Positions 418-35,826 of a stretch of 35,826 nt of DNA are shown here, in pieces (position 1 is the first letter of the stretch; every line of letters starts with the position of its first letter). This stretch comes from Clostridia bacterium (GTDB taxonomy: Bacteria > Bacillota > Clostridia > Oscillospirales > Acutalibacteraceae). Both the position numbers and the translations under genes were made by a program. The DNA is taken from the NCBI GenBank assembly GCA_017397105.1, contig JAFQKF010000042.1, forward strand, positions 1-35,826, read 5' to 3'. A model generated the notes under the pieces. That model did no database searches and was not told the DNA's origin. It worked only from the letters and a program-made list of their open reading frames with translations.

Positions 418-780
418 CTAGTTAAATACTATTTCACTATTTACAATTTCTCTTGCCCTTGCTTCAATATTTTGCATATGGCATATCCATTCCATTTGAT
501 TTTCTTCTTTCAGTTGCTCGGTTACACATTCTGCATGTTTCATCTGTTCAATAAGAGTATCAAACATCTGTTGTGCCTGATTTTCTACCTCGGCACAGTG
601 CTTATAAAGTTTGCCTTGAGTAAGCAGTGTTGTAAACAGCACTTTTTTATGTTTCAAAAGATAATCCTTGTGCATCATTCCCCATTTGCCTAGTCTGATA
701 TTTGTTTCTTCGGGCGGTAATACAAGGTTAGGAATATTGTAGTCTCCAACTCGTCTATAAGTGATATTTTTAGTTTTCAT
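418..780 (-). CDS. tnpV: TnpV-like transposon-encoded protein
   Basis: A 120-residue protein with the character of the TnpV family, small proteins carried by Clostridia mobilizable transposons and conjugative elements. Recognisable segments are the N-terminal YRRVGDYNIPNLVLPPE, then LGKWGMMHKDYLLKHK, TTLLTQGKLYKHCAEVE and EENQMEWICHMQNI, ending in EIVFN. The length is usual for the family. A Shine-Dalgarno (AAAGGAT) precedes the ATG. The molecular function of TnpV is not established. The gene is visibly more AT-rich than the chromosomal genes to its right. No integrase or transposase is visible beside it, so it is either the edge of an element extending left or a remnant. Confidence 0.85.
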   Translation of the reverse strand: MKTKNITYRRVGDYNIPNLVLPPEETNIRLGKWGMMHKDYLLKHKKVLFTTLLTQGKLYKHCAEVENQAQQMFDTLIEQMKHAECVTEQLKEENQMEWICHMQNIEARAREIVNSEIVFN

Positions 781-4972: not shown

Positions 4973-6417
4973 TATGCATTGATTTTTTCTTCTTTTTGCG
5001 CCATGAGCTCTCTTCGTTTTTTAAGCTCCGATTCAATGAAAGCCCTTTGCTCCTTATCGTCCTTGACAAACATAATAACGATAACGTAAAGAATCTGACC
5101 GATAACGGGGCCGAGCATGAAAATGGGCCACTGCCATTTCATATAAAGAGGACCCTGCTGGTGATTCTTGAGCGAGCCGTCATACTTAATCCAATCAAGT
5201 ATAAGACCGCTGAGCAGGAGATTTACAGCTGAAGCAATCTTGGTAATGAAGTTCTGAATCGAGAACGAAATGCCTTCCGTGCGTTTACCCGTTTTGTACT
5301 CAACATAATCAATGGAGTCACTGGTAAGCGAACGGTGAGCAACGTCCATCATATTTGAAGGAATTGCAACTATCGCCATGAGAGCGCAGACAACGTAAAT
5401 GGCGCCAACGCTTTCAAATCCGACGAAATAGCTGATTGTTCTGAGCACAATGGAGATACCCTGCGCAATGATGAGAATCCTCTTCATTCCACCAACCTTA
5501 TCCGAAATCTTGGTGGCAAAGAAAATAGCAATGGCACCGGGAGCCCCCATAAGAATGCCGTAAACAACCTGAGAAGTACCGCCGTCAAAGCTTGCAAAGC
5601 CGAAATCGAAGCTCTCTCTGCTTTCAAAGAAATATGCCCAGGGCAGAAGCGAAGAGGTAACGCTGCTGAGGAATCTTGCAAGAGAAATAAGAAGCAGCGT
5701 TTTATTATGCCTGAGAACAAAAATCGCCTCAAATATACTTTCGTTGGTTTTGGGTGTTTCCACCATCTCCTTCATGGAGTGAGCGGACATTGATAACAGC
5801 TCGCCGCCAAGGCCGAAAACAAGAGCAAACACGGCAAAAACAGTAACGTCATCCCAGCCGAACGTTCCCGATACAAAGGAGCGTATCATCTGAAACGCAC
5901 CCGCGATAATCGAGCCTGCGCCTGCGCCGATTGTTACCCACTGCGAAACCTTGGCACGTTCCTTTGAACTGGGTGACGACACGGCAACCATTCCCCACAG
6001 AGCAACGTCCTGCACGGAATAAAACAAATCCCAGAGCAGATACTCAACAAAAATCAGCACAACAGTCGCCATAGGACTCAGGCCGAAATTGATGAACATA
6101 AGCGCCGAAAGGATGCCGATAACCGGCGGCAGATAAACAAGATACGGGCGAAGCTTTTCGCCGTTTTTAAATCTGTGCTTGTCAACCATAGCGCCGATAA
6201 TGGGATCGTTTACGGAATCCCACGCTCTGGTAATACTCGTTATGTAGCCAACCGTTTTAGGCGCTATTTTAAGCACTGAAGCACAGTAATAAAACAACCA
6301 GCCTGAAATATAACTGTAAGTCATATTCTGGCCTGCAAGACCGACAGCGTAAGAAAAAAGATTCTTCGTTTTTACGTATCCGCCTTCATCCGGTATAACA
6401 CGGGGTTCATTTGACAT
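4972..6417 (-). CDS. GPH-family (MelB-like) sugar:cation symporter
   Basis: A 481-residue, 12-helix MFS_2-type transporter. The N-terminal region has KNLFSYAVGLAGQNMTYSYISGWL and the diagnostic helix-2 segment ITRAWDSVNDPIIGAMVDKHRF, whose Asp residues bind the coupling cation in MelB. GEKLRPYL follows, as is usual in this family. These proteins import glycosides, pentosides or hexuronides with Na+ or H+. The substrate cannot be read from the sequence and no glycosidase is adjacent, though GH5 and GH38 enzymes occur elsewhere in the window. The gene has its own promoter at 6455-6484 with a palindrome overlapping the -35 box, so it is probably controlled by a repressor. Confidence 0.85.
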   Translation of the reverse strand: MSNEPRVIPDEGGYVKTKNLFSYAVGLAGQNMTYSYISGWLFYYCASVLKIAPKTVGYITSITRAWDSVNDPIIGAMVDKHRFKNGEKLRPYLVYLPPVIGILSALMFINFGLSPMATVVLIFVEYLLWDLFYSVQDVALWGMVAVSSPSSKERAKVSQWVTIGAGAGSIIAGAFQMIRSFVSGTFGWDDVTVFAVFALVFGLGGELLSMSAHSMKEMVETPKTNESIFEAIFVLRHNKTLLLISLARFLSSVTSSLLPWAYFFESRESFDFGFASFDGGTSQVVYGILMGAPGAIAIFFATKISDKVGGMKRILIIAQGISIVLRTISYFVGFESVGAIYVVCALMAIVAIPSNMMDVAHRSLTSDSIDYVEYKTGKRTEGISFSIQNFITKIASAVNLLLSGLILDWIKYDGSLKNHQQGPLYMKWQWPIFMLGPVIGQILYVIVIMFVKDDKEQRAFIESELKKRRELMAQKEEKINA

Positions 6418-6542: not shown

Positions 6543-7613
6543 TTACAAATCTTTTTCCATTCTTTTCATTTTTCGGCGGGTGCGGTTAAGATGCCGTTCA
6601 AAGCTTCCGCTCGTTATGAATTCCGCAAGCACATACTGGTCAAGCACAGGAACCGTGCAGGAGTTATGCCCCAGCCTTTCATCGTATATTTTCATAAGCT
6701 CTTCGGACAAAATCATGTATCCCATTCTCATTGACGGAGAAAGACTCCTTGAAAAAGTATTCATGTAAATTACACGTTGATTCTTATCAAGAGAATAAAG
6801 AGATTCAATCGGATTGCCGGGCATAAAAAACTCGCTTTCAAAGTCATCCTCAACTATATAGCCCGAGCTCTTCTTTGCCCAACCGAGGTATTCGCATCTT
6901 TTGGAAAAGCTTGCGGTAGCACCTGACGGATAACTGTGAAACGGTGTAACGTGAAGCACGTCCATATCAGCTTTTTCAAGGCACGAGCTTTCAATTCCGT
7001 CCGCTCCCATTTTAAGCTTTACCGTCTTTACACCTGCCGCAGTGTATACCGCTTCAATCTGACGGTATGACGGATCCTCAATCCCGAACACCTTATCCAT
7101 GCCCAGAATCTTTACAACGGATTCATAAAGCTGCTCTGAGCCCGATCCGATAATTATACTTTCGGGCTGAGCAAGCATACTTCTGTAACGCAGAAGATAC
7201 TCTGAAATCGCATTTCTCAGCACGGCACACCCCTTATTGGGAGATTTTTCAAAAAGCCTTTCGCCGTTATCAGCAATAACCTTACGGATTGTTTTAAACC
7301 ACACCGAGTATTCAAAATCTGTTTTTTCACCCGAAGACTCATCTTCAAGCAAAACAAGAGGCGAAACAGCCGCAGACTCTGACGGTGCATAAAAATCCGA
7401 TGCAGCATTAACGTAATAACCGCTGCGCTCCCTTGCTGTAATGAACCCCTCATCAGCAAGCCTTCTGTATGCCGCCTCAACTGTAACGGTGCTGCACCCT
7501 GCTTTATCGGCAGCAACACGCTTTGAGGGTAAGCGCTCATTTGCCTTATATTCACCGCTTATTATTTTTCTCTTTTCCCTGCGGTAAAGCTCCAAATATT
7601 TTTTATCAGCCAT
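6543..7613 (-). CDS. MocR/PdxR-like GntR-aminotransferase fusion regulator, C-terminally short and lacking the PLP lysine
   Basis: A 356-residue protein. Residues 1-70 are a GntR winged helix (KRKIISGEYKANERLPSKR and VEAAYRRLADEGFI). Residues from about 100 are a fold-type-I aminotransferase-like domain with TPFHSYPSG (223-231) and EDDFESEF (255-262). MocR proteins are usually about 460-480 residues; this one stops after HLNRTRRKMKRMEKDL, so about 100 residues of the C-terminal small domain are missing, and no remnant follows. The PLP-binding Lys in the usual TFSKxLxPxxRxGY motif is R289 here (NTFSRSLSPSMRMGY). It diverges from a pyridoxal kinase gene, so a PdxR-like role in vitamin B6 salvage is likely. 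A good AAAAAAGGAG lies 16 bases before the ATG, farther than usual, with no better start in frame. Confidence 0.8.
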   Translation of the reverse strand: MADKKYLELYRREKRKIISGEYKANERLPSKRVAADKAGCSTVTVEAAYRRLADEGFITARERSGYYVNAASDFYAPSESAAVSPLVLLEDESSGEKTDFEYSVWFKTIRKVIADNGERLFEKSPNKGCAVLRNAISEYLLRYRSMLAQPESIIIGSGSEQLYESVVKILGMDKVFGIEDPSYRQIEAVYTAAGVKTVKLKMGADGIESSCLEKADMDVLHVTPFHSYPSGATASFSKRCEYLGWAKKSSGYIVEDDFESEFFMPGNPIESLYSLDKNQRVIYMNTFSRSLSPSMRMGYMILSEELMKIYDERLGHNSCTVPVLDQYVLAEFITSGSFERHLNRTRRKMKRMEKDL

Positions 7614-7657
7614 CTGGTTATATAAAATTCTCCTTTTTTGACTATTTAAACATCACC

Positions 7658-7691
7658 AATTTGTATTATAATTGAAATCAGAAAATTTGTA
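7658..7691. promoter_or_regulatory. Direct repeat in the divergent regulator-kinase control region
   Basis: AATTTGTA occurs at 7658-7665 and again at 7684-7691, flanking a good -10 box (TATAAT, 7667-7672). The only -35-like element (TTGACT, 7638-7643) is 23 bp away, too far for unaided use. That fits an activator-dependent promoter, and MocR regulators are known to bind direct repeats. The assignment is inference. Confidence 0.35.
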
Positions 7692-7706
7692 AAGGAGCAA
7701 AAAGAT

Positions 7707-8537
7707 ATGTCTAACAAAAAAGTTCTCACCGTTCAGGATATCTCCTGCTACGGACAGTGCTCCCTCACGGTTGCTCTGCCCATCATTTCCGCTTGCGGAC
7801 TTGAAACCTGCGTGCTTCCCTCTGCCGTGCTTTCCACTCACACCGGCGGATTCAAGGGCTTCACCTTCCGTGACCTTACAGAAGATATCCCGCTTATCCG
7901 TAAGCATTGGGAAAGCGAAGGAATCAAATTCAACGCAATTTACACGGGTTACCTCGGCAGTGAAAAACAGATTGAATATGTTGATGACCTTTTCAATTCG
8001 GTAGCTGCAGACGGTTGCCTTAAGATTGTTGACCCTGCTATGGCAGACAACGGCAAGCTGTATCCCGGCTTTGATGCCGCTTTCGCAAACACCATGAAAT
8101 CTCTCTGTGCAAAAGCCGATTACGTACTCCCCAACATCACCGAAGCCTGCCTTCTCACCGACACCCCCTACACCGCCGAATATGACAGAGAATTCATTGA
8201 CACTATTCTTGAAAAGCTCTGTGCACTCGGTGCAAAGAACGTTGTGCTTACAGGCATTGCTTACGATTGCGAAAGCACCGGTGTTGTTGTATACGAAAAC
8301 GGCGAATACAGCTACTACAAGCACAAGAAGCTTGCTAAGGGTTGCCACGGTACAGGCGATATCTATGCCTCAGCCTTCACAGGCGCTCTTATGAGAGGCA
8401 AAAGCGCATTTGATGCCGCAAAAATCGCCGCCGACTACGCCGTAAAATGCATTGAAATGACCCAGGGCGATGAAAGCCACTGGTACGGCGCAAGATTTGA
8501 ACCCGTTCTTCCCGAGCTTATAAAGGCACTTGACTAA
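7707..8537 (+). CDS. pdxY: Pyridoxal/pyridoxamine kinase
   Basis: A 276-residue ribokinase-superfamily enzyme that phosphorylates vitamin B6 vitamers with ATP to supply PLP. Motifs are VLTVQDISCYGQCSLTVALP at the N-terminus, STHTGGF around residues 43-49, VDPAMADNGKLY (108-119), NITEACLL (143-150) and the anion-hole/catalytic KGCHGTGD (211-218, catalytic D218). The length is usual for PdxY/PdxK-type enzymes in Firmicutes. The ATG follows AAAGGAGCAAAAAGAT, a strong ribosome site. It diverges from the MocR/PdxR-like gene, the usual partner of B6-salvage genes, and ends in a strong terminator. Whether PdxY or the alternative PdxK name fits better cannot be decided here. Confidence 0.87.
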   Translation: MSNKKVLTVQDISCYGQCSLTVALPIISACGLETCVLPSAVLSTHTGGFKGFTFRDLTEDIPLIRKHWESEGIKFNAIYTGYLGSEKQIEYVDDLFNSVAADGCLKIVDPAMADNGKLYPGFDAAFANTMKSLCAKADYVLPNITEACLLTDTPYTAEYDREFIDTILEKLCALGAKNVVLTGIAYDCESTGVVVYENGEYSYYKHKKLAKGCHGTGDIYASAFTGALMRGKSAFDAAKIAADYAVKCIEMTQGDESHWYGARFEPVLPELIKALD

Positions 8538-13402: not shown

Positions 13403-14464
13403 TTGATTGAAGTTAAAAATCTCACAAAAAACTACGGCGACGTTGTTGCCGTAAACGACATCAGCTTCACCGTTGAAGCAGGAAAAATCTACGGCTTCCT
13501 CGGCCCTAACGGAGCAGGCAAGTCAACCACCATGAATATAATAACAGGTTGCCTTTCCGCCTCCTCAGGCACTGTGACCGTTGACGGCCACGATATTTTT
13601 GACGACCCTATCGGCGCAAAAAAATGCATCGGCTATCTGCCTGAAATTCCCCCTCTTTACACAGACATGACTCCCCTTGAGTTTCTCACGTTTGTAGGCA
13701 GAGCGAAGGGTCTTAAGAAGCAGGAGCTTTCATCTGCCGTAGTATCCGTAATGGAGAAAACGGATATCTTCGACGTACGCTCAAGACTCATCAAAAATCT
13801 TTCAAAAGGCTATAAGCAAAGAGTAGGCATTGCCCAGGCCATCCTCGGCAATCCAAAAGTAATTATACTTGACGAGCCCACGGTTGGCCTTGACCCTATT
13901 CAGATTGTGGAAATCCGTTCACTTATCAGAGAGCTGAGCAAGGAGCACACAGTAATCCTCAGCAGCCACATTCTGCCCGAGGTAAGCGAAATCTGCGATG
14001 AAATCCTTATTATTTCCAACGGAAAGCTCGTTGCATCCGACACAGCTGAAAACCTTATAAAGAAATTCAACCCCGAAACAGTTACCGAGCTTGTTATCTC
14101 AGGTGACGTTGAGGCCTGCGCAAATGCTCTTGCAGCAATTGACGAAATCTCAAAAATCGAAATTGACGACGCAGCCGAAGACGGCACCGTCAAGCTCTTC
14201 CTTCACATACCGAGCAACGAGGATATAAGGCAGAAGGTTGCAGAAAAAATCGTAGAAAGCGGAGCGCTTATGCTTTCCATGAACACCGTAAAAGCAAGCC
14301 TTGAGGATATTTTCCTTGAGGTAACAAGCGAAAACATCGGTGTTTTGACAAGGGAAGCGGAAACCGCTGAACAAAGTGCAGAAGAAAGCACCGAAAACGG
14401 CACAGAAGAAACAGCCGAAGCTTGCACAGAAGAGAATGAAGAAAAGGAGGATGAAGAAGCATGA
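13403..14464 (+). CDS. ABC-2 transporter ATP-binding protein (GldA-like)
   Basis: A 353-residue ATPase with Walker A GPNGAGKST (34-42), signature LSKGYKQR (133-140), Walker B VIILDEP (153-159, catalytic E158) and the switch His in ILSSHILPE. After the nucleotide domain comes a ferredoxin-like extension (about 230-310) usual for GldA/CcmA-type ATPases. It ends in an unusual acidic tail of about 35 residues, rich in Glu (TAEQSAEESTENGTEE and onward). The TTG at 13403 is the start, preceded by GGAGG with an 8-base gap. It overlaps the permease gene by 4 bases (ATGA). It drives the transporter formed with the next three genes; the substrate is unknown. Confidence 0.9.
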   Translation: MIEVKNLTKNYGDVVAVNDISFTVEAGKIYGFLGPNGAGKSTTMNIITGCLSASSGTVTVDGHDIFDDPIGAKKCIGYLPEIPPLYTDMTPLEFLTFVGRAKGLKKQELSSAVVSVMEKTDIFDVRSRLIKNLSKGYKQRVGIAQAILGNPKVIILDEPTVGLDPIQIVEIRSLIRELSKEHTVILSSHILPEVSEICDEILIISNGKLVASDTAENLIKKFNPETVTELVISGDVEACANALAAIDEISKIEIDDAAEDGTVKLFLHIPSNEDIRQKVAEKIVESGALMLSMNTVKASLEDIFLEVTSENIGVLTREAETAEQSAEESTENGTEETAEACTEENEEKEDEEA

Positions 14465-15324
14465 GTGCAATTTTCAGAAAAGAACTCAAAAGCTATTTCA
14501 CAGGGCCTATCGCCTACGTGTTCATGGCTGTTCTGCTTGTAACAACAGGTATTTACACCATGATTTACAATCTTTCCTATCAATACGCAACCTACGAATA
14601 CGTTTACGGCGCAGTTTCCTTTATTTATCTTATAATAATTCCCATCCTCACAATGAGAATTTTTGCAGAAGAAAGAAAGCAGAAAACAGAGCAGCTTCTT
14701 TACTGTCTGCCGTTAAAAATGTCCTCCATCGTTGCAGGCAAATATCTCGCCGCCGTTACCGTGCTCGCAGTCCCCTGCGCAATAACGGGCATTTATCCTT
14801 TCATTCTTTCACTTTACGGAAACGTTAATTTCAAAATTGTTTTTGTTTCCCTGTTGGCATTCTTCCTTCTCGGTGCGGCACTCATTGCAGTGTGTATGTT
14901 TATATCCTCACTTACCGAGAATCAGATTCTCGCCGCAATCATTTCCTTTATCGTTGTATTTATCAATTATTTTATCGCTAACCTTTCAGGCTTCGTTTCG
15001 GGCTCAAGCTTCGCCTCCTGCCTGTGCCTGATGGCGGTAATCGTTGCCCTTGCGCTTATCGTTAATTATCTTACAAAAAACAAGCTCCTTGCAGAAATCG
15101 TTGCAATTGTTCTGCTTGCGGCATTGCTTGCAGTTTTCCTTATTGACCCCTCGCTCCTTGAGGGCGTTGCTCCCGAAATTCTCAACAGACTCGCTCTTTT
15201 CGACGGATTTTACAACATGGTTTACGGTCTGTTTGACCTTGGCACGGTTGTAATGTTCCTGAGCGTTGTTGTTTTGTTCAATCACATGAGCGTTGTTTCA
15301 CTTGAAAAAAGGAGGTGGGCATGA
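14461..15324 (+). CDS. ABC-2 type permease (GldF-like)
   Basis: A 287-residue protein with six or seven hydrophobic segments. It begins MSAIFRKELKSYFTGPIAYVF, a classic ABC-2 permease N-terminus, followed by IIIPILTMRIFAEERKQKTEQLL, in which the charged coupling helix ERKQKTEQLL is typical of GldF/NosY-like permeases. Translation is coupled to the ATPase gene by ATGA overlap, and its stop overlaps the next start in the same way. It presumably forms the membrane channel with the ATPase. Confidence 0.87.
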   Translation: MSAIFRKELKSYFTGPIAYVFMAVLLVTTGIYTMIYNLSYQYATYEYVYGAVSFIYLIIIPILTMRIFAEERKQKTEQLLYCLPLKMSSIVAGKYLAAVTVLAVPCAITGIYPFILSLYGNVNFKIVFVSLLAFFLLGAALIAVCMFISSLTENQILAAIISFIVVFINYFIANLSGFVSGSSFASCLCLMAVIVALALIVNYLTKNKLLAEIVAIVLLAALLAVFLIDPSLLEGVAPEILNRLALFDGFYNMVYGLFDLGTVVMFLSVVVLFNHMSVVSLEKRRWA

Positions 15325-16781
15325 TGAAGAAAAAGAAAAACACTCAGCAGGTCGGCTTTAAAGACGCATTCACCTCAAAGGCATCAAAAGCCGGCGGCTT
15401 CAGCCTTGCTGTTTCAGCGGTAGTGCTTGTAATAATCGTTGTTGCCAACCTTTTAATCTCCGCCCTCCCCTCTGAGTATACAAGCTTTGACCTCACGCTT
15501 GACGATACTTTTTCTGTCAGCTCCCAGACCGTGGATTTCCTGAGCACTGTTGACAGTGACATCACTGTTTACCACGTTTGCCAGGACGGAAACGAAGATT
15601 CCTACGTCACCAATCTTATTGAGCAGTACGATGAACTCTCTGATAAAATCACGGTTAAAACAGTTGACCCCGTTGTCAATCCTGCTTTCACCTCAAAATA
15701 CACCGACGGTGAACTTACCGACAACAGCCTTATCGTTGTAAACGGCGAGCGTTCAAAATGCGTAAGCTACAACGATATGTATGATTATCAGATGGATTAC
15801 TCATCATACTCATACCAGACCACGGCATTCAAAGGTGAAAACTCACTCACAAACGCAATCGACTACGTTACAAACGACAATCTTCCCTCAGTATATTTTG
15901 TAACCGGCCACGGAGAGGCTGAGCTTGAAGCTTCTTTCGCCTCCGCCCTTTCGAGTGCAAACTATCTTACCGAAAAATTCAGCCTTCTCGGATCAGAGGG
16001 TATCCCCGAAGAGGCTGACTGCGTGGCAATCGTTTCCCCCGCTTCCGACTTTTCTGAAAATGACGTAAAGCTCCTTGAAGATTACGTTGCAAACTCAGGC
16101 AAGCTCTTCCTTTCCACGGATAATATCACCAAGGAAAGCCACCCCAATCTTTACTCTTTTATTGAGCATTACGGCATTCTGCCCGTTGATGGCACCGTGG
16201 TTGAAACCGACACCAGTATGTGCTATATGTACTACACCTTCCTTCTGCCTGATTTCGGCACTCACGAAATCATGAGCGGTATGGAAAATTATGACGTGCT
16301 TCTCCCCGGCACACAGGGTGCAACTCTTGCTGAAGAAAAGCGTGACGGTGTTTCGGTTTACACTCTTCTTTCATCCTCCGGCAAAGCATACTCCACAGTT
16401 GATTTTGAAACCAAGGAAAGCCTTGAAGCAGGCGAAAACGATATTCTTGCTCCCGAGCTCGGCTTCGGACTCGGTTTTGCGGTAACGGATTCTTCCGTAA
16501 ATTCCGATGCTCCCGGTATGCTTATATACTTCCCTTCAAGCGCATTCATGAGCGCCGAGTATGACGTTACGGGCGCAAACTCCATGGTTTTCGTAAACTC
16601 ATTCGGCTGGCTCACCGAAAAAGAAGCATCGCTGAGCATCCCCGCCAAAAGCATGCAGATGGAAACCCTCACCGTTGACGAGGCGTCGGCAAACATCCTG
16701 AAAATTCTCTTTATTTTCATCATCCCTGCAATTCTTCTTGTTGTGGGCTTTGTAATCTTCATCAAAAGGAGAAAGCGCTGA
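15321..16781 (+). CDS. GldG-family ABC-associated protein
   Basis: A protein of about 486 residues with an N-terminal membrane helix (near residues 25-45), a large extracytoplasmic domain, and a C-terminal helix followed by KRRKR. The outer domain has YTSFDLTLDDTFSVS, DSDITVYHV, VYFVTGHGEAE and CVAIVSPASDFSENDVKLLEDYV, typical of the GldG/ABC_transp_aux family. The open frame begins with a GTG at 15315, but that overlaps the AAGGAGG ribosome site (15309-15315). The ATG at 15321 makes an ATGA overlap with the permease stop; the ATG at 15324 is equally possible. These proteins accompany ABC-2 transporters outside gliding bacteria, and the cargo is unknown. Confidence 0.82.
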   Translation: MMKKKKNTQQVGFKDAFTSKASKAGGFSLAVSAVVLVIIVVANLLISALPSEYTSFDLTLDDTFSVSSQTVDFLSTVDSDITVYHVCQDGNEDSYVTNLIEQYDELSDKITVKTVDPVVNPAFTSKYTDGELTDNSLIVVNGERSKCVSYNDMYDYQMDYSSYSYQTTAFKGENSLTNAIDYVTNDNLPSVYFVTGHGEAELEASFASALSSANYLTEKFSLLGSEGIPEEADCVAIVSPASDFSENDVKLLEDYVANSGKLFLSTDNITKESHPNLYSFIEHYGILPVDGTVVETDTSMCYMYYTFLLPDFGTHEIMSGMENYDVLLPGTQGATLAEEKRDGVSVYTLLSSSGKAYSTVDFETKESLEAGENDILAPELGFGLGFAVTDSSVNSDAPGMLIYFPSSAFMSAEYDVTGANSMVFVNSFGWLTEKEASLSIPAKSMQMETLTVDEASANILKILFIFIIPAILLVVGFVIFIKRRKR

Positions 16782-18160
16782 TGAAAAAATCCGTAAAACT
16801 GCTTATTCTTTTGCTTGTGCTTGCGGTTTTAACAGGAGGCTATGCGGCTGTCAGATATTTTGATACGGCAAAGAACAACACGGATGAGGTTCAGGAGGAA
16901 CAGCTGATAATCGCTGCTTCGCTTGATTCATCCGCAGTCACCTCTTTAAGCTGGAAAAACAGCAACACCGAAATCAACCTCGTTCTCAAAGAAAACGAAT
17001 GGCAGTATATTGAGGACAGCGGCTTCCCCGTTGACCAGACCTATCCCGAGGAAATACTCAAGGCTGTAAGCGAGGTTACCGCCTCAAGAATTGTCAGCGA
17101 AGCAGCAGAGGATCTTGCACAGTACGGACTTGAGCCCCCTGCATACAGAGCGGTAATGCAGTTCTCCGACGGCAGTAGTACCGAATACTATATAGGCAAT
17201 TATTCTTCCGCTGCAGGTGCTTACTACTTCAAAACCTCTGCCTCGGATTCGGTTTATCTTGTTGACGATACCCTGCCCACTCTTTTCAACAACGAGCTTC
17301 TCAGCATTATCGAGTACGAAGCAATTCCTTCAATATCCGATTTCTCAAAACTTGAAATCACCGCAGGCAATAAATCCACGGTTATTGAGGCTCTTGACGG
17401 CAGCAAGTATTCATACACGGATTTGTATAAATATTTTGTTGTTGACGGCGCAGATTATATCCCCGTTGATTCGGATATGGCTTATGCGATAGAAACCGAC
17501 GTTTCTTCCGTTGCATGGAGCACCTGCGTTGACTATACGGGAAAATATGAGGATTTCGGGCTTGACAATCCCTCGTATAAAATCGGTATTTCTTATACCG
17601 ACAGCGACGCAAAAGACAGCAAGCTCACACTTCTTATCGGCACAGCAACCGATGACGGCAGCTACTACGCCTGCATTGAGGGCAGCGGAATGATTTACAC
17701 CGTATCCGATTCGGTAATATCCTCGCTTCTCATTGATAACGCAGAAGAAATCTACTCGTTTGATATGTGCAGAGCGGTTTACTACAACGTTTCAGAGCTT
17801 GATATCACCTACAAGGGCAAGCAATACAACTTCAGCGTGGTCCGTGATATAGCAACAGACGAAAACGGTGAAAACACCCCGTCTGACGTATACACACTCA
17901 ATTCAAAAGATGCGGATTCCTCCGCTTGTGACGATTTCTTCTATGCATTCTTTGATATCAAAGGCACAGAGTATCTCGCAGAAGATTATGTCGTTTCAGG
18001 CGACGCCGTAATGAGCGCAAAGGTTGTTTCCGATTCGGGCATAACGGAATTTAAGCTTTACGAATACGACGAAAGCAATTATATCGTTTCAATCGGCGGC
18101 AAAACGAGAATCACCGTAGCAAAAGCCGATATTGAAGCGCTCAACTGGAATATTGCATAA
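16781..18160 (+). CDS. DUF4340 membrane-anchored extracytoplasmic protein
   Basis: A 459-residue protein with one N-terminal membrane helix (about 5-27) and a long outer region built from repeated modules. Two copies of the DUF4340-like pattern are visible: LVLKENEWQYIEDSGFPVD with LAQYGLEPPAYRAVMQFSDG and YYIGNYSSAAGAYYF, and later FGLDNPSYKIGISYTD with LTLLIGTATDDGSYYA. The start overlaps the GldG stop by 1 base (TGATG). The gene order ATPase, permease, GldG and DUF4340 recurs in bacteria, indicating one functional complex. The role is unknown. Confidence 0.8.
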   Translation: MKKSVKLLILLLVLAVLTGGYAAVRYFDTAKNNTDEVQEEQLIIAASLDSSAVTSLSWKNSNTEINLVLKENEWQYIEDSGFPVDQTYPEEILKAVSEVTASRIVSEAAEDLAQYGLEPPAYRAVMQFSDGSSTEYYIGNYSSAAGAYYFKTSASDSVYLVDDTLPTLFNNELLSIIEYEAIPSISDFSKLEITAGNKSTVIEALDGSKYSYTDLYKYFVVDGADYIPVDSDMAYAIETDVSSVAWSTCVDYTGKYEDFGLDNPSYKIGISYTDSDAKDSKLTLLIGTATDDGSYYACIEGSGMIYTVSDSVISSLLIDNAEEIYSFDMCRAVYYNVSELDITYKGKQYNFSVVRDIATDENGENTPSDVYTLNSKDADSSACDDFFYAFFDIKGTEYLAEDYVVSGDAVMSAKVVSDSGITEFKLYEYDESNYIVSIGGKTRITVAKADIEALNWNIA

Positions 18161-18167
18161 TCAAAAA

Positions 18168-18194
18168 AGGCACACGGTATTAGTCCGTGTGCCT
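18168..18194. terminator. Hairpin terminator after the ABC-2 operon
   Basis: AGGCACACGG pairs with CCGTGTGCCT around a seven-base loop. The plus-strand T tract is weak (ATTGATTTATT). The A run before it would make a stronger terminator for minus-strand transcripts. Confidence 0.65.
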
Positions 18195-18259: not shown

Positions 18260-19519
18260 ATGAAAGTTGCATTGGAGTACAGCGAAAAATTTGACATTGC
18301 CGCTCAGGCAAGATACGCTTACAGAGGCATTGCAAAAATCTGTGAAAAGATCGGCCCCCGCAAGCCCGGCTCGCCCGAAGAGCTCAGAGCTCAGCAGTGG
18401 ATGGGCAAAGACCTTTCCAACTACTGCGAAAAGGTTGATATTGAAGATTTCACAGTTCACCGTCAGGCATTTATGGGATTTATCCCCTTCACCGTTGCTT
18501 GCGCTATCCTGAGCGTTTTTATGTTCGCATTCGTCAGCCCCATTGTTTCGGCTGTTATCGTTGTTGCGGGATTCGTTCCGCTTATTCTTGAGTTCCTTAT
18601 GTATAAGCAGTTCTGCGACCCTCTTTTCAAAGGTCATCCCAGCCATAACGTTATTGCAAGAAGAGCTCCCAAGGGCGAAATCAAAAAGAGAATAATCCTT
18701 GTCGGCCACGCTGACAGCCAGTTTGAATGGACTCTTAACTATCTCCTCGGCGGCGTAGGAATGAAGCTTGTGCTTATTCCTGCGGTTGTAGGTCTTGTAG
18801 CAGACCTCATCATAGCAATCCTCGGCATCATTTTTGCAGGCAACAGCGGTGCTCTCGGCGCAACCGAAGGCGGTATACATAAATTTATGATTTTCGCTTT
18901 CGTTGTAGGTTGCGTTTTCATCCCCTTCCAGATTGCTTTCCTTTTCTTCCAGAGCTACACCAAGAGCGTTCCCGGCGCATCGGACAACCTTTCAGGCTGC
19001 TTTGTTTCCATGAGCATCCCCAAGGCTCTTGAAGAGGCTGACGTCCGCTTTGAGAATACAGAGGTTGTAATCATCTGCTCAGGTTCGGAAGAAGCGGGCC
19101 TCAGAGGCGCAAAGGCTTACGTAAAGGCTCACGAAAAAGAGCTTAAGGAAATTGAAACAGTTGTTATCGGTTGCGATACATTCCGTGACCTTGAGGATAT
19201 GGCTGTTTATGACCGTGACCTCAGCGGTACTGTAAAGCACCATGCAGGCGCAAAGAATCTCGTTAAAAACGCTGCTGCAAACTGCGGCTACGAGCTTGAT
19301 TTTGCTTCAATTTACCTTGGTGCCTGCGATGCGGCGGCTTTCACTCAGAAAGGTATCCCTGCCACAGGCTTTGCAGCTATGGACCCCACTCCCCCCAAGT
19401 ATTACCACACAAGGCTTGACAACGTTGAAAATCTTCGTGAAGATGCTCTTGCTGCAGGTATAGAGATACTTGTTGAAACCGTTTGTATGTATGATAAAGA
19501 AGGACTTCCCAAGGTATAA
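18260..19519 (+). CDS. Membrane-embedded M28 family zinc aminopeptidase-like protein
   Basis: A 419-residue protein combining an M28 peptidase core with hydrophobic segments inserted at about 72-115 and 165-230. The metal-binding set is complete: H150-A-D152, D242 in PGASDNLSG, general base E277 and ligand E278 in GSEEAGLRG, D306 in VIGCDTF, and H383 in KYYHTRLDN. M28 enzymes remove N-terminal residues from peptides; the substrate here is unknown, and the side of the membrane on which the catalytic part lies is uncertain. The ribosome site AAAGG is about 13 bases from the ATG, rather far. The rRNA methyltransferase gene begins 3 bases after its stop. Confidence 0.8.
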   Translation: MKVALEYSEKFDIAAQARYAYRGIAKICEKIGPRKPGSPEELRAQQWMGKDLSNYCEKVDIEDFTVHRQAFMGFIPFTVACAILSVFMFAFVSPIVSAVIVVAGFVPLILEFLMYKQFCDPLFKGHPSHNVIARRAPKGEIKKRIILVGHADSQFEWTLNYLLGGVGMKLVLIPAVVGLVADLIIAILGIIFAGNSGALGATEGGIHKFMIFAFVVGCVFIPFQIAFLFFQSYTKSVPGASDNLSGCFVSMSIPKALEEADVRFENTEVVIICSGSEEAGLRGAKAYVKAHEKELKEIETVVIGCDTFRDLEDMAVYDRDLSGTVKHHAGAKNLVKNAAANCGYELDFASIYLGACDAAAFTQKGIPATGFAAMDPTPPKYYHTRLDNVENLREDALAAGIEILVETVCMYDKEGLPKV

Positions 19520-19522
19520 GAT

Positions 19523-20176
19523 ATGACTGTTCTCGATGGTAAAAACGAAAAAAATATAACCTTGCAGGAGCTCAGCGACCTTGCGGCACGGTATGAAAAA
19601 ACTGTGGTTGACCTCGGCACGGGCGACGGCAGAAACGTTTACCGCAAGGCAAAGCTAAACCCCGACACTCTGTTTATAGGAATTGACCCCGTAAGGGACA
19701 ATATGCTTGAAATATCTTCAAAGTTAAAAAAGAAGCCTGCAAAGGGCGGACTTGAAAACGTTCTGCTTGTAATTGCAAGCGCAGAAAATATGCCATGCGA
19801 ACTGGAAAGCATTGCGCACTGCGTTACCGTGCTTTTCCCATGGGGCACTCTGCTTGAGGGAATAGTCAAGCCGACTCAACAGATTCTCGGCGCGGTTTCT
19901 TTTGCCGCCAAGGATAAGGCAGACTTTGAATTCATAACCACCTATTCCGACTCCTGCGAAGAGGCTACCATTGAAAACAGAGGCTTGCCGCCGCTTAGTA
20001 TCGAATACTTCAACGGCGATTACCGCAACATTCTCAAGGAAAAAGGCTTTGAAATTGAGAACGTTGAGCTTCACGGCAACGAATACGTAAAAAGCTTTGA
20101 TTCTATGTGGGCAAAGCGTCTCGCTTTCGGCAGAAAACGTGATTTTTACAGAATAACCGGCACAATAAATAAATAG
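19523..20176 (+). CDS. npmA-like: NpmA/KamB-like 16S rRNA (adenine-1408 N1) methyltransferase
   Basis: A 217-residue class I SAM-dependent methyltransferase. It has the full signature of the A1408 N1-methyltransferases that give pan-aminoglycoside resistance: VVDLGTGDGRNVY with SAM-binding D30, FIGIDPVRDNM, KKPAKGGLENV, ASAENMP with E88, LFPWGTLLEGIVKP with W107, and a C-terminal SMWAKRLAFGRKRDFYR with W196, R204 and R206. In NpmA the two matching Trp residues sandwich the flipped A1408 and the C-terminal Arg residues contact rRNA. Length and residue spacing match NpmA (219 residues) nearly throughout, from memory of that sequence. The start is 3 bases after the M28 peptidase stop, with AAGGT as ribosome site, so translation is probably coupled. 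Composition looks like the neighbours and no mobile gene is adjacent. Confidence 0.88.
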   Translation: MTVLDGKNEKNITLQELSDLAARYEKTVVDLGTGDGRNVYRKAKLNPDTLFIGIDPVRDNMLEISSKLKKKPAKGGLENVLLVIASAENMPCELESIAHCVTVLFPWGTLLEGIVKPTQQILGAVSFAAKDKADFEFITTYSDSCEEATIENRGLPPLSIEYFNGDYRNILKEKGFEIENVELHGNEYVKSFDSMWAKRLAFGRKRDFYRITGTINK

Positions 20177-20286: not shown

Positions 20287-20315
20287 TTGAAAAACTTGAA
20301 AAATGCGTTTATAAT
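20287..20315 (+). promoter_or_regulatory. Promoter of the CREST-like membrane protein gene
   Basis: TTGAAA (20287-20292), a 17-bp spacer and a perfect TATAAT (20310-20315) lie 30 bases before the start. Confidence 0.8.
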
Positions 20316-20345: not shown

Positions 20346-21215
20346 TTGAAGATGCTTCATCTCCCGATGCTGTCAATCAACTTCATTGATTGGCTCTCAT
20401 TCAAGGACATTCCGCTTTTTGACGGCGCAATGTCACTTGCAGAATACTGCGCTCAGTATTCCGCTGTACAAACCAACTGGGCATACACCTATGCCGGCAT
20501 TATCGGTATCATTATTCTTCTTCTCAAAAAGAACAAGAAGTGGTACTGGTACATTTTCCTTTCACTTTTCATGATCATGTCCGTAACATCCGTAGGAATG
20601 CACACCGCTAACTACGGCGAATTCCAGCCCTTCGTGCTTACAACAAAGCTTCTTGCAAGCTACGTTGATATGTCCTTTACAGAGCTCGTTGCATGGTCCG
20701 GCGTTTGCTGCTTTGCTTTTGAATTCTATGAGGATAACAAAAAGCTCAGGAACAAATTCCTGATTTTTGACACGGTGATTATGCTGGCTGTTATCGGAAT
20801 TCTTACATACGAAGTATTTGTTGTTCACAACCGCCCCCTTTATTTTGGCGGCGGCGGAGCTCCCATGGACGGTAAGACCGGCGGCCTTTCAATCGCAGAG
20901 CTTGGCTGCTTCATCACCGCTCTCCCCATCCTCTATCTCCTCTTCGCAAACTTAAAGAAGATGACCAAAACAGAGCTTTCTCTTTTCCTTCTTCTTATCG
21001 GTACAATTCTTATTGCATTCATCATCACCTCCATCTGGGGCGACAATGAAATCGCTGATTTCGCACTCGGCAACTTCCACGGTCACTCCACATGGCATAT
21101 GCTCGGCGCTCTCCTTGAGCTTGAAGTTGTTGTTTGGGTTGACGCCCGTGAAACAACCAGAAAACTTGCCAAAGCAAAGGAAGAAGCTCTTGCAGAGGCT
21201 GCTAAAGCCGCTTAA
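20346..21215 (+). CDS. Seven-helix membrane protein resembling the CREST hydrolase superfamily
   Basis: A 289-residue protein with about seven transmembrane helices. It carries the residue pattern described for CREST proteins (alkaline ceramidase, PAQR receptors, Per1, SID-1, TMEM8): S82-x3-H86 in VTSVGMHT at helix 2, D108 in SYVDMSF near helix 3, and H247-x3-H251 in GHSTWHMLGAL at the last helix. In ceramidases and PAQR proteins these residues bind zinc and catalyse amide hydrolysis of lipids. The assignment rests on these motifs and topology, so the enzyme activity is inference. The Ala/Lys/Glu-rich C-terminal tail (KLAKAKEEALAEAAKAA) is probably helical. The TTG at 20346 follows AAGGAAGG by 6 bases; the in-frame ATG at 20352 is an alternative. 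Monocistronic. Confidence 0.5.
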   Translation: MKMLHLPMLSINFIDWLSFKDIPLFDGAMSLAEYCAQYSAVQTNWAYTYAGIIGIIILLLKKNKKWYWYIFLSLFMIMSVTSVGMHTANYGEFQPFVLTTKLLASYVDMSFTELVAWSGVCCFAFEFYEDNKKLRNKFLIFDTVIMLAVIGILTYEVFVVHNRPLYFGGGGAPMDGKTGGLSIAELGCFITALPILYLLFANLKKMTKTELSLFLLLIGTILIAFIITSIWGDNEIADFALGNFHGHSTWHMLGALLELEVVVWVDARETTRKLAKAKEEALAEAAKAA

Positions 21216-35158: not shown

Positions 35159-35826
35159 TTATTCTAAATTTGTCTTATGAATCTGCGTTGAGATTTTGCC
35201 TCTATTTTTATACGCACCGAGAATTTCGGGCGGTATGTTTTCAACTGCTTTTTTGAGTTCTTCGTATTCCTGAAGTTTGCGGGAAATTTCAAGTTTTTTG
35301 AGGGTGCTCTCTTTACTGTCATCAAGCTTTTTCTCAAGCTCTGCATTCTCTGTCTTTAGTGTCTTATACGCTGCATCGTATTTTTTCAGCTTTGTCTTCA
35401 TCTGCTCAACACCGGGGATATATTCATCAAGCAACGCTTCGATTTCTGCAACTTTTTTCTTTGCATTCAGCGGATTGATTTCCGTCAGTAAGTTCATCAG
35501 CATTTCTCTTTGTTTGTTCAGCTTTACGGCTTGTTTGAAAAGCCTCGGCGGAATATGTTCTCTGCCCGTTTCACTTGCACTTTCGCCCCGTTCCATATCG
35601 GGGTATTTCTTCACCATGTGTTTCCAGAATTCATCCTGCCACCAGGTCAGCTTTTTTCTGTTGCCGACTATGTCTTTTGCACTCAGTCTGCCGTCTTCCG
35701 TTATCGGAACAAACGACAGATGCATATGCGGCGTTTTTTCATCAACGTGAATCACCGCTGATATGATTCTTTCCTTTGGAACGTGTTTCAGAATGAAATT
35801 CAGAGCGTGTTCAAAGTATTCTTTGA
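35159..35826 (-). CDS. MobV/Pre-type plasmid mobilization relaxase (partial, N-terminus outside window)
   Basis: The open frame runs to the right window edge. The GTG at 35755 is not a real start, because codons continue upstream without a stop and encode KEYFEHALNFILKHVPKER followed by IISAVIHVDEKTPHMHLSFVPI. The HVDEKTPHMH segment is the MobV metal-binding motif (HxDExxPHMH). Further on come WWQDEFWKHM and a long coiled coil (about the last 110 residues, with AELEKKLDD and LQEYEELKKA). MobV relaxases nick an origin of transfer to move plasmids and integrated mobilizable elements. The C-terminal portion looks complete. A small gene follows. Confidence 0.88.
   Translation of the reverse strand, partial: KEYFEHALNFILKHVPKERIISAVIHVDEKTPHMHLSFVPITEDGRLSAKDIVGNRKKLTWWQDEFWKHMVKKYPDMERGESASETGREHIPPRLFKQAVKLNKQREMLMNLLTEINPLNAKKKVAEIEALLDEYIPGVEQMKTKLKKYDAAYKTLKTENAELEKKLDDSKESTLKKLEISRKLQEYEELKKAVENIPPEILGAYKNRGKISTQIHKTNLE

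Follow-up and report, generated by a model that had tools for sequence, protein, structure and literature searches.

The gene at 19523..20176 on the forward strand of the window, by which is meant the whole 35,826-nucleotide stretch of DNA analysed, is quite probably a working m1A1408 methylase that is native to its host and gives it intrinsic resistance, with the wider clade around it as the likely reservoir of the clinical enzyme NpmA. The source of NpmA has been an open matter. In the present analysis NpmA nests among uncultured Clostridia, largely from ruminant guts, and one branch of this clade is shown to inherit the methyltransferase gene vertically, which indicates a probable origin for the hospital resistance gene npmA. 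The window is the whole contig of a genome that is 76% complete, and the account draws on these of its features:

418-780, reverse strand: TnpV gene (PF14198)
13403..14464, forward strand: ABC transporter ATPase (PF00005), at the head of the conserved operon nearby
14461..15324, forward strand: ABC-2 type membrane protein (PF12679)
15315..16781, forward strand: GldG-like ABC auxiliary protein (PF09822)
16781..18160, forward strand: DUF4340 protein (PF14238), last gene of the conserved operon
18168..18194, forward strand: terminator-like hairpin between the DUF4340 and M28 genes (stem of 10 pairs; folding energy -21.1 kcal/mol, z -6.9)
18260..19519, forward strand: M28-family peptidase gene (PF04389, 79.7 bits), with membrane segments recognised by eye
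19523..20176, forward strand: NpmA/Kam-family 16S rRNA (adenine-1408-N1) methyltransferase gene, an intact ATG open reading frame of 217 aa, identified by PF24675, the NpmA structures and key residues
20181..20215, forward strand: terminator-like hairpin downstream of the methyltransferase gene, with a T-rich tail (folding energy -20.2 kcal/mol, z -5.8)
35159-35755, reverse strand: C-terminal part of a Mob_Pre relaxase fragment (PF01076)

The original prediction of an NpmA/KamB-like A1408 methyltransferase at this locus is borne out by the family match. The Pfam NpmA model, PF24675, covers residues 3-213 of the 217 in the protein and scores 214.8 bits against a cut-off of 60 (E 1e-63), and the best matches among solved structures are three NpmA chain sequences (E 2e-72 to 9e-72; 244-246 bits), followed at 89-120 bits by 7jlz, NpmB1 (7ehf), 4rwz, the CacKam chains and KamB (3mq2). 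On the allele-level NCBIfam model of NpmA, NF000030, the protein scores 248.5 bits, below the cut-off of 470, and it is therefore a relative of NpmA and not an npmA allele. The two proteins are identical at 112 of 217 aligned residues (51.6%).

Of 27 NpmA positions checked in the alignment, 24 are identical in the window protein: D30, G32, T33, G34, N38, D55, P56, K67, K70, K71, E88 and F105, and further along P106, W107, T109, L110, E146, R153, S195, W197, R200, L201, R205 and R207 (NpmA numbering). The other three are substituted, K66 by S, A86 by S and L196 by M. D30, E88 and W107 carry the same numbers in both proteins, whilst W196, R204 and R206 of the window protein correspond to W197, R205 and R207 of NpmA, so that every residue singled out beforehand is present at a near-identical position. 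W107 and W197 line the A1408 channel and have been called universal in the m1A1408 family (PMC12340973); among 86 aligned rows W107 is found in all 86 and W197 in 85, the exception being a gap. The residues of the beta2/3, beta5/6 and beta6/7 linkers which contact the 30S subunit are, K66 apart, likewise kept (K67, K70, K71, E146, R153, R204 and R206). Roles on the 30S subunit have been assigned to E146, R153 and R207 and to the positively charged beta2/3 linker, and N1 methylation of A1408 is described as blocking kanamycin, neomycin and apramycin (PMC4705659).

By homology, the enzyme would use its beta2/3 linker, which is rich in lysine, to dock on the mature 30S subunit. A1408 would be flipped out of helix 44 and held between W107 and W196, with R204 and R206 at the phosphate, and its N1 would be methylated with SAM as the donor. 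The expected outcome is intrinsic resistance to aminoglycosides of the kanamycin, neomycin and apramycin types. If this is true, some commensal Clostridia would be intrinsically resistant to apramycin-type drugs.

The local arrangement agrees with that described beforehand. The M28 reading frame ends at 19519, 3 bases before the methyltransferase ATG at 19523, and strong hairpins flank the pair, as expected of a terminator-bounded unit; the downstream hairpin was detected by folding and missed by the terminator scan. The M28 gene is the probable co-transcribed partner of the methyltransferase gene, in the window only. Five promoter-like sites were found compared with 4.8 in shuffled sequence, and since they are no commoner than in shuffles no promoter has been assigned. 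The composition of the gene is also native: its GC3 of 0.509 lies 0.76 SD above the mean of the 30 other chosen window ORFs (0.476 +/- 0.043). A Pfam scan of all 31 chosen ORFs left six or so with no match, and its only mobile-element matches are the TnpV and Mob_Pre genes, both close to the contig ends and 15-19 kb from the methyltransferase gene. The absence of an adjacent mobile gene thus holds as stated, there being none within 15 kb in this Pfam scan, albeit qualified by these two genes, at which the assembly of the contig probably broke. No drug-related gene was found in the window. Beyond the downstream hairpin, 20346-21215 (+) encodes a 289-aa protein, membrane-like by eye and lacking a Pfam match, with a promoter-like site at 20287-20315 ahead of it (11/12 matches).

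The gene is a long-resident, vertically inherited chromosomal gene of one gut Clostridia clade. Five of the 45 genomes of the genus carry a protein above the family cut-off, and an RpoB tree with 25 of the 45 places these five carriers in a single clade (support 100/99). This tree stems from 30 of the 45 genomes, which were searched and gave 26 matches; with the fragmentary G001 left out, its rows comprise the 5 carriers, G016 and 19 non-carriers. The RpoB order of the carriers, (G000,(G031,(G030,(G013,G066)))), agrees with the methyltransferase tree except within the last three. In 5/5 carriers the same four genes, ABC ATPase, ABC-2, GldG-like and DUF4340, precede the methyltransferase gene in the same order, their tblastn identities between the window and the four congeners being 61-67%, 55-56%, 39-46% and 29-33%, respectively, whilst the methyltransferases of the congeners share 59-62% protein identity with the window copy. 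The dN/dS values for five carrier pairs including the window are 0.07-0.14, and are approximate because dS is 1.1-2.5; a less saturated pair elsewhere in the family, L073/L075, has a dN of 0.054 and a dS of 0.53. It is the single RpoB clade, the agreeing protein tree, the shared operon and this purifying selection which together mark the gene as native, and the conserved operon and RpoB tree answer the question of synteny raised in the original prediction in favour of vertical inheritance in the genus. Fixation in the clade and purifying selection show that the function of the gene has been kept.

The immediate surroundings of the gene differ within the genus: where the window has its M28 gene, the four congeners have a PDZ lipoprotein gene between DUF4340 and methyltransferase (a Pfam assignment in three; weak HtrA-type matches in L020), and a DNA-deoxyinosine glycosylase gene follows the methyltransferase gene in all four (TIGR04274) but not in the window. 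Few genomes of the genus have the ABC/GldG-like/DUF4340 operon at all. The DUF4340 protein occurs in 6/45 genomes and accompanies the methyltransferase in five of the six; the sixth, G016, has the GldG-like gene too, but other genes downstream. By count this co-occurrence has a Fisher p of 5e-6, a value which relatedness makes too small. The four congener loci match public MAG contigs (L055-L058), one with goat omasum in its title and three with RUG isolate names, which presumably denote rumen genomes.

The wider relationships of the protein place it firmly with NpmA. A family tree of 86 proteins was built; 101 proteins were drawn for it, with 13 duplicates and 7 rows that were short or interrupted left out. 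The window protein and its four congeners form one group (100/96), which lies within a clade of 17 rows made up of clinical NpmA and 16 uncultured Clostridia proteins, the window protein included (100/99 in the full tree and 100/97 in a reduced tree). Of the 15 named loci of this clade, five have a ruminant gut site in their titles and six more bear RUG names. The rows nearest to NpmA are L060 and L063, from uncultured Ruminococcus with RUG names (99/93 in the full tree, 94/94 in the reduced tree), whose identity to NpmA is 55-56%. Joining NpmA to the window group instead is not rejected (AU p 0.174 in the reduced tree), and the reduced tree carries a long-branch warning among its outgroups together with the lower support for the sister of NpmA. 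Membership of NpmA in the 17-row clade is accordingly firm, its exact sister unsure. The residues of A1408 recognition, W107, W197, R205, R207, E146 and R153, are kept in all 17 rows.

The wider clade of the window gene is the likely reservoir of clinical NpmA, mobilisation having presumably run from these Clostridia outwards. The backbone of the pARS3 transposon has been traced to plasmids of gut Firmicutes and a gut origin proposed by Jones et al. 2010, who found no relative of NpmA among the human gut data of that time (PMC2822762). The suggestion that the window gene might be a chromosomal source or relative of npmA holds as regards a chromosomal relative. The gene is not the direct source, being 51.6% identical where L060 and L063 are nearer. 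In the literature surveyed, which lay outside the NpmA2, NpmB and NpmC papers, no report was found of NpmA nesting here or of a linkage to rsmI or rsgA.

In the genomes sampled the m1A1408 family is rare and patchy. It is present in 3/394 genomes of the order, 5/391 of the class and 9/398 of the phylum (the window's own genome being counted each time), and in 2/297 of the family of G245. Where present it can be long settled, as in the group g333, which includes Herbivorax and Acetivibrio alkalicellulosi; here 5/5 genomes carry the gene, with a common downstream neighbour family (a SEC-C motif in L026). Six f121 genomes have a leuA-type gene downstream in 6/6 and a CxxCxxCC-type gene upstream in 5/6, one member of each type having been named by profile match. 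An alignment-based scan of named contigs gave relatives in many phyla, of which the best 80 of 108 were kept, whereas a single-sequence scan of contigs gave none. Anaerobacterium chartisolvens and Acetivibrio alkalicellulosi are cultured, non-pathogenic organisms that carry such a relative. Searches of plasmids, phages and viral contigs with the window protein and with the alignment found no relative; the plasmid search is weak, since npmA itself was not shown by it.

Other genes of RNA modification also adjoin the family. L080 has a divergent TruB-type gene at 5169-5978 (-) (PF01509; under the TIGR00431 cut-off) that resembles genes in four further WWE3 loci, and in L106 the neighbour is mnmA at 6661-7773 (+), a similar gene being seen in L103. 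L088, L092 and L113 have DUF371 genes beside the family member, to which tblastn adds L118, L125 and L131; DUF371 may be a decoding-centre partner. As for the target nucleotide, the assemblies of the five carriers and of G245 contain no 16S gene (two of the eight genomes examined had one), so that A1408 is not readable in the carriers. The 16S segment CGCCCGTCACACC, in which the A is taken to stand at position 1408, was found in two other lineages, in 5/5 copies of G660 and in the 2 of 3 G705 copies that were displayed.

Three other explanations of the gene have been weighed and all are disfavoured. Recent acquisition, in which a mobile element brought in a resistance gene and the short contig hides the fact, would suit the patchy distribution and the two mobile-element genes, TnpV and Mob_Pre, towards the ends of the contig. 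It is nonetheless very unlikely, given that copies 59-62% identical to that of the window have the same operon neighbours in five species-level genomes, that the RpoB tree is congruent and the GC3 native, and that naming by eye puts two of the congener copies near genes of rnf type and one near genes of pyr type. A methyltransferase with some other RNA target, such as a TrmB-like tRNA enzyme, has even less to commend it: the protein matches TrmB models through the shared SAM fold at 26.4 bits, far short of the cut-off of 112.65, the A1408-recognition residues are invariant in the NpmA clade, and the 86-protein tree, a check proposed at the outset, groups the protein with NpmA and not with TrmB or another family. 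The least credible of the three is KamB-like self-protection of an aminoglycoside producer. The Kam enzymes of producers are homologous, the tree including Streptomyces and Actinokineospora rows, but each carrier has one DHQ-synthase-family gene (5/5, in assemblies 76-97% complete), as for AroB alone and so with no sign of a 2-deoxy-scyllo-inosose synthase, and no 2-deoxystreptamine-type cluster was seen among the 31 window ORFs scanned.

A more substantial rival, still less likely than not, concerns the main role of this lineage. Constitutive methylation of A1408 may be a native modification of the decoding centre in 30S maturation, alongside RsmI, which acts at C1402, and RsgA; resistance would then be a side effect and NpmA a captured maturation gene. 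In the NpmA clade the immediate neighbour is rsmI for 6 of the 16 native genes and rsgA for 2, with all six RsmI proteins passing TIGR00096 and both RsgA proteins TIGR00157. Two gene orders occur with rsmI, which follows the npmA-like gene in L060 and L063 (24-26 bases between) and precedes it in L064-L067 (from a 4-base overlap to 57 bases apart), whilst rsgA lies directly upstream in L068 (4947-5828 (+), 151 bases) and L069 (5021-6004 (+), 4-base overlap). Neighbours were read in 82 loci, 77 of them with both sides and with spurious frames possible in those of high GC; rsmI is next door in 7/82 loci compared with about 0.08 expected, under a crude 2,000-gene model which ignores relatedness. 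Between loci rsmI and the methyltransferase gene beside it diverge in step, for example at 63/63% and 75/74% identity. Outside the Clostridia, in Pseudomonadota, a DUF371-RsmI fusion (PF04027; TIGR00096 over cut-off) overlaps the NpmA-family gene by 17 bases in L110 (6632-7888 (+)) and lies one gene away in L109 (7381-8655 (+)). Fixation of the gene in g333 and the want of drug-related genes in the window speak for such a role as well.

Against a decoding-centre role, the rare and patchy occurrence (as in the family of G245) is unlike that of a housekeeping gene, and rsmI and rsgA neighbours are absent from the window's own group (0/5) and from L059, L061 and L062. For E. coli there are moreover reports that NpmA prevents RsmF from acting at C1407 and lowers fitness, although accuracy and tolerance of stress are also said to be unimpaired (PMC12406665). 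Rarity favours an accessory role, and adjacency to rsmI or rsgA a role in maturation. The housekeeping methyltransferase envisaged as an option in the original prediction gains from the neighbours of related genes but not from those of the window gene itself. A bolder reading, less likely than not, is that some gut Clostridia naturally and constitutively carry m1A1408 at the decoding centre, through an enzyme expressed together with RsmI or RsgA as the 30S subunit matures; that the pan-aminoglycoside resistance gene npmA is such a maturation gene, taken up first by a gut plasmid and later by IS26; and that the window gene is fixed by vertical descent in the same lineage and has moved beside the ABC/DUF4340 operon. 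The repeated adjacency to rsmI and rsgA offers a testable proposal for the role of such enzymes before resistance, and the long-settled chromosomal relative in the window suggests that npmA may have originated as an ordinary ribosome-modifying gene.

As regards the native, resistance-conferring methylase preferred here, parallels can be drawn with several known systems. NpmA of the E. coli plasmid pARS3 (PDB 3p2e, 3mte and 4ox9) belongs to the same Pfam family and the same clade, the identity extending over 217 residues, and its A1408-channel, SAM-pocket and phosphate-contact residues are also those of the window protein. It differs in that npmA is carried on an IS26 transposon (PMC2822762), whereas the window gene is chromosomal, vertically inherited and set in an ABC/M28 neighbourhood, with S in place of K66. 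RsmI, the 16S rRNA C1402 2'-O-methyltransferase, resembles these enzymes in acting on a nearby decoding-centre nucleotide of the mature 30S subunit (PMC5053481) and adjoins six members of the clade. It is of an unrelated family (TP_methylase), has another target and is not found beside the window gene.

NpmB1, KamB, CacKam, Kmr and WarA are members of the same m1A1408 family as the window protein, although the NpmB1, KamB and CacKam chains match it much less closely than do those of NpmA. NpmB1 groups with Acidobacteriota rows and CacKam with Actinomycetota rows, whilst KamB, Kmr and WarA fall outside the tree sample. Two Acidobacteriota loci, L095 and L123, hold chromosomal relatives of the E. 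coli NpmB1, with which they are grouped at 100/99, L095 being 82% identical over 172 columns; theirs is the likely source lineage of npmB.

In C. difficile npmA2 is known (PMC9311965), and earlier work, reportedly that of Witek and Conn in 2014, expressed four hypothetical relatives from a variety of bacteria (PMC4705659). Compared by description only, npmA2 and NpmC resemble the window gene in being A1408 methyltransferases from gut bacteria. NpmC reportedly comes from the gut of humans and animals. Chromosomal relatives and the gut relative NpmC are already in print, and to these the window gene adds another member.
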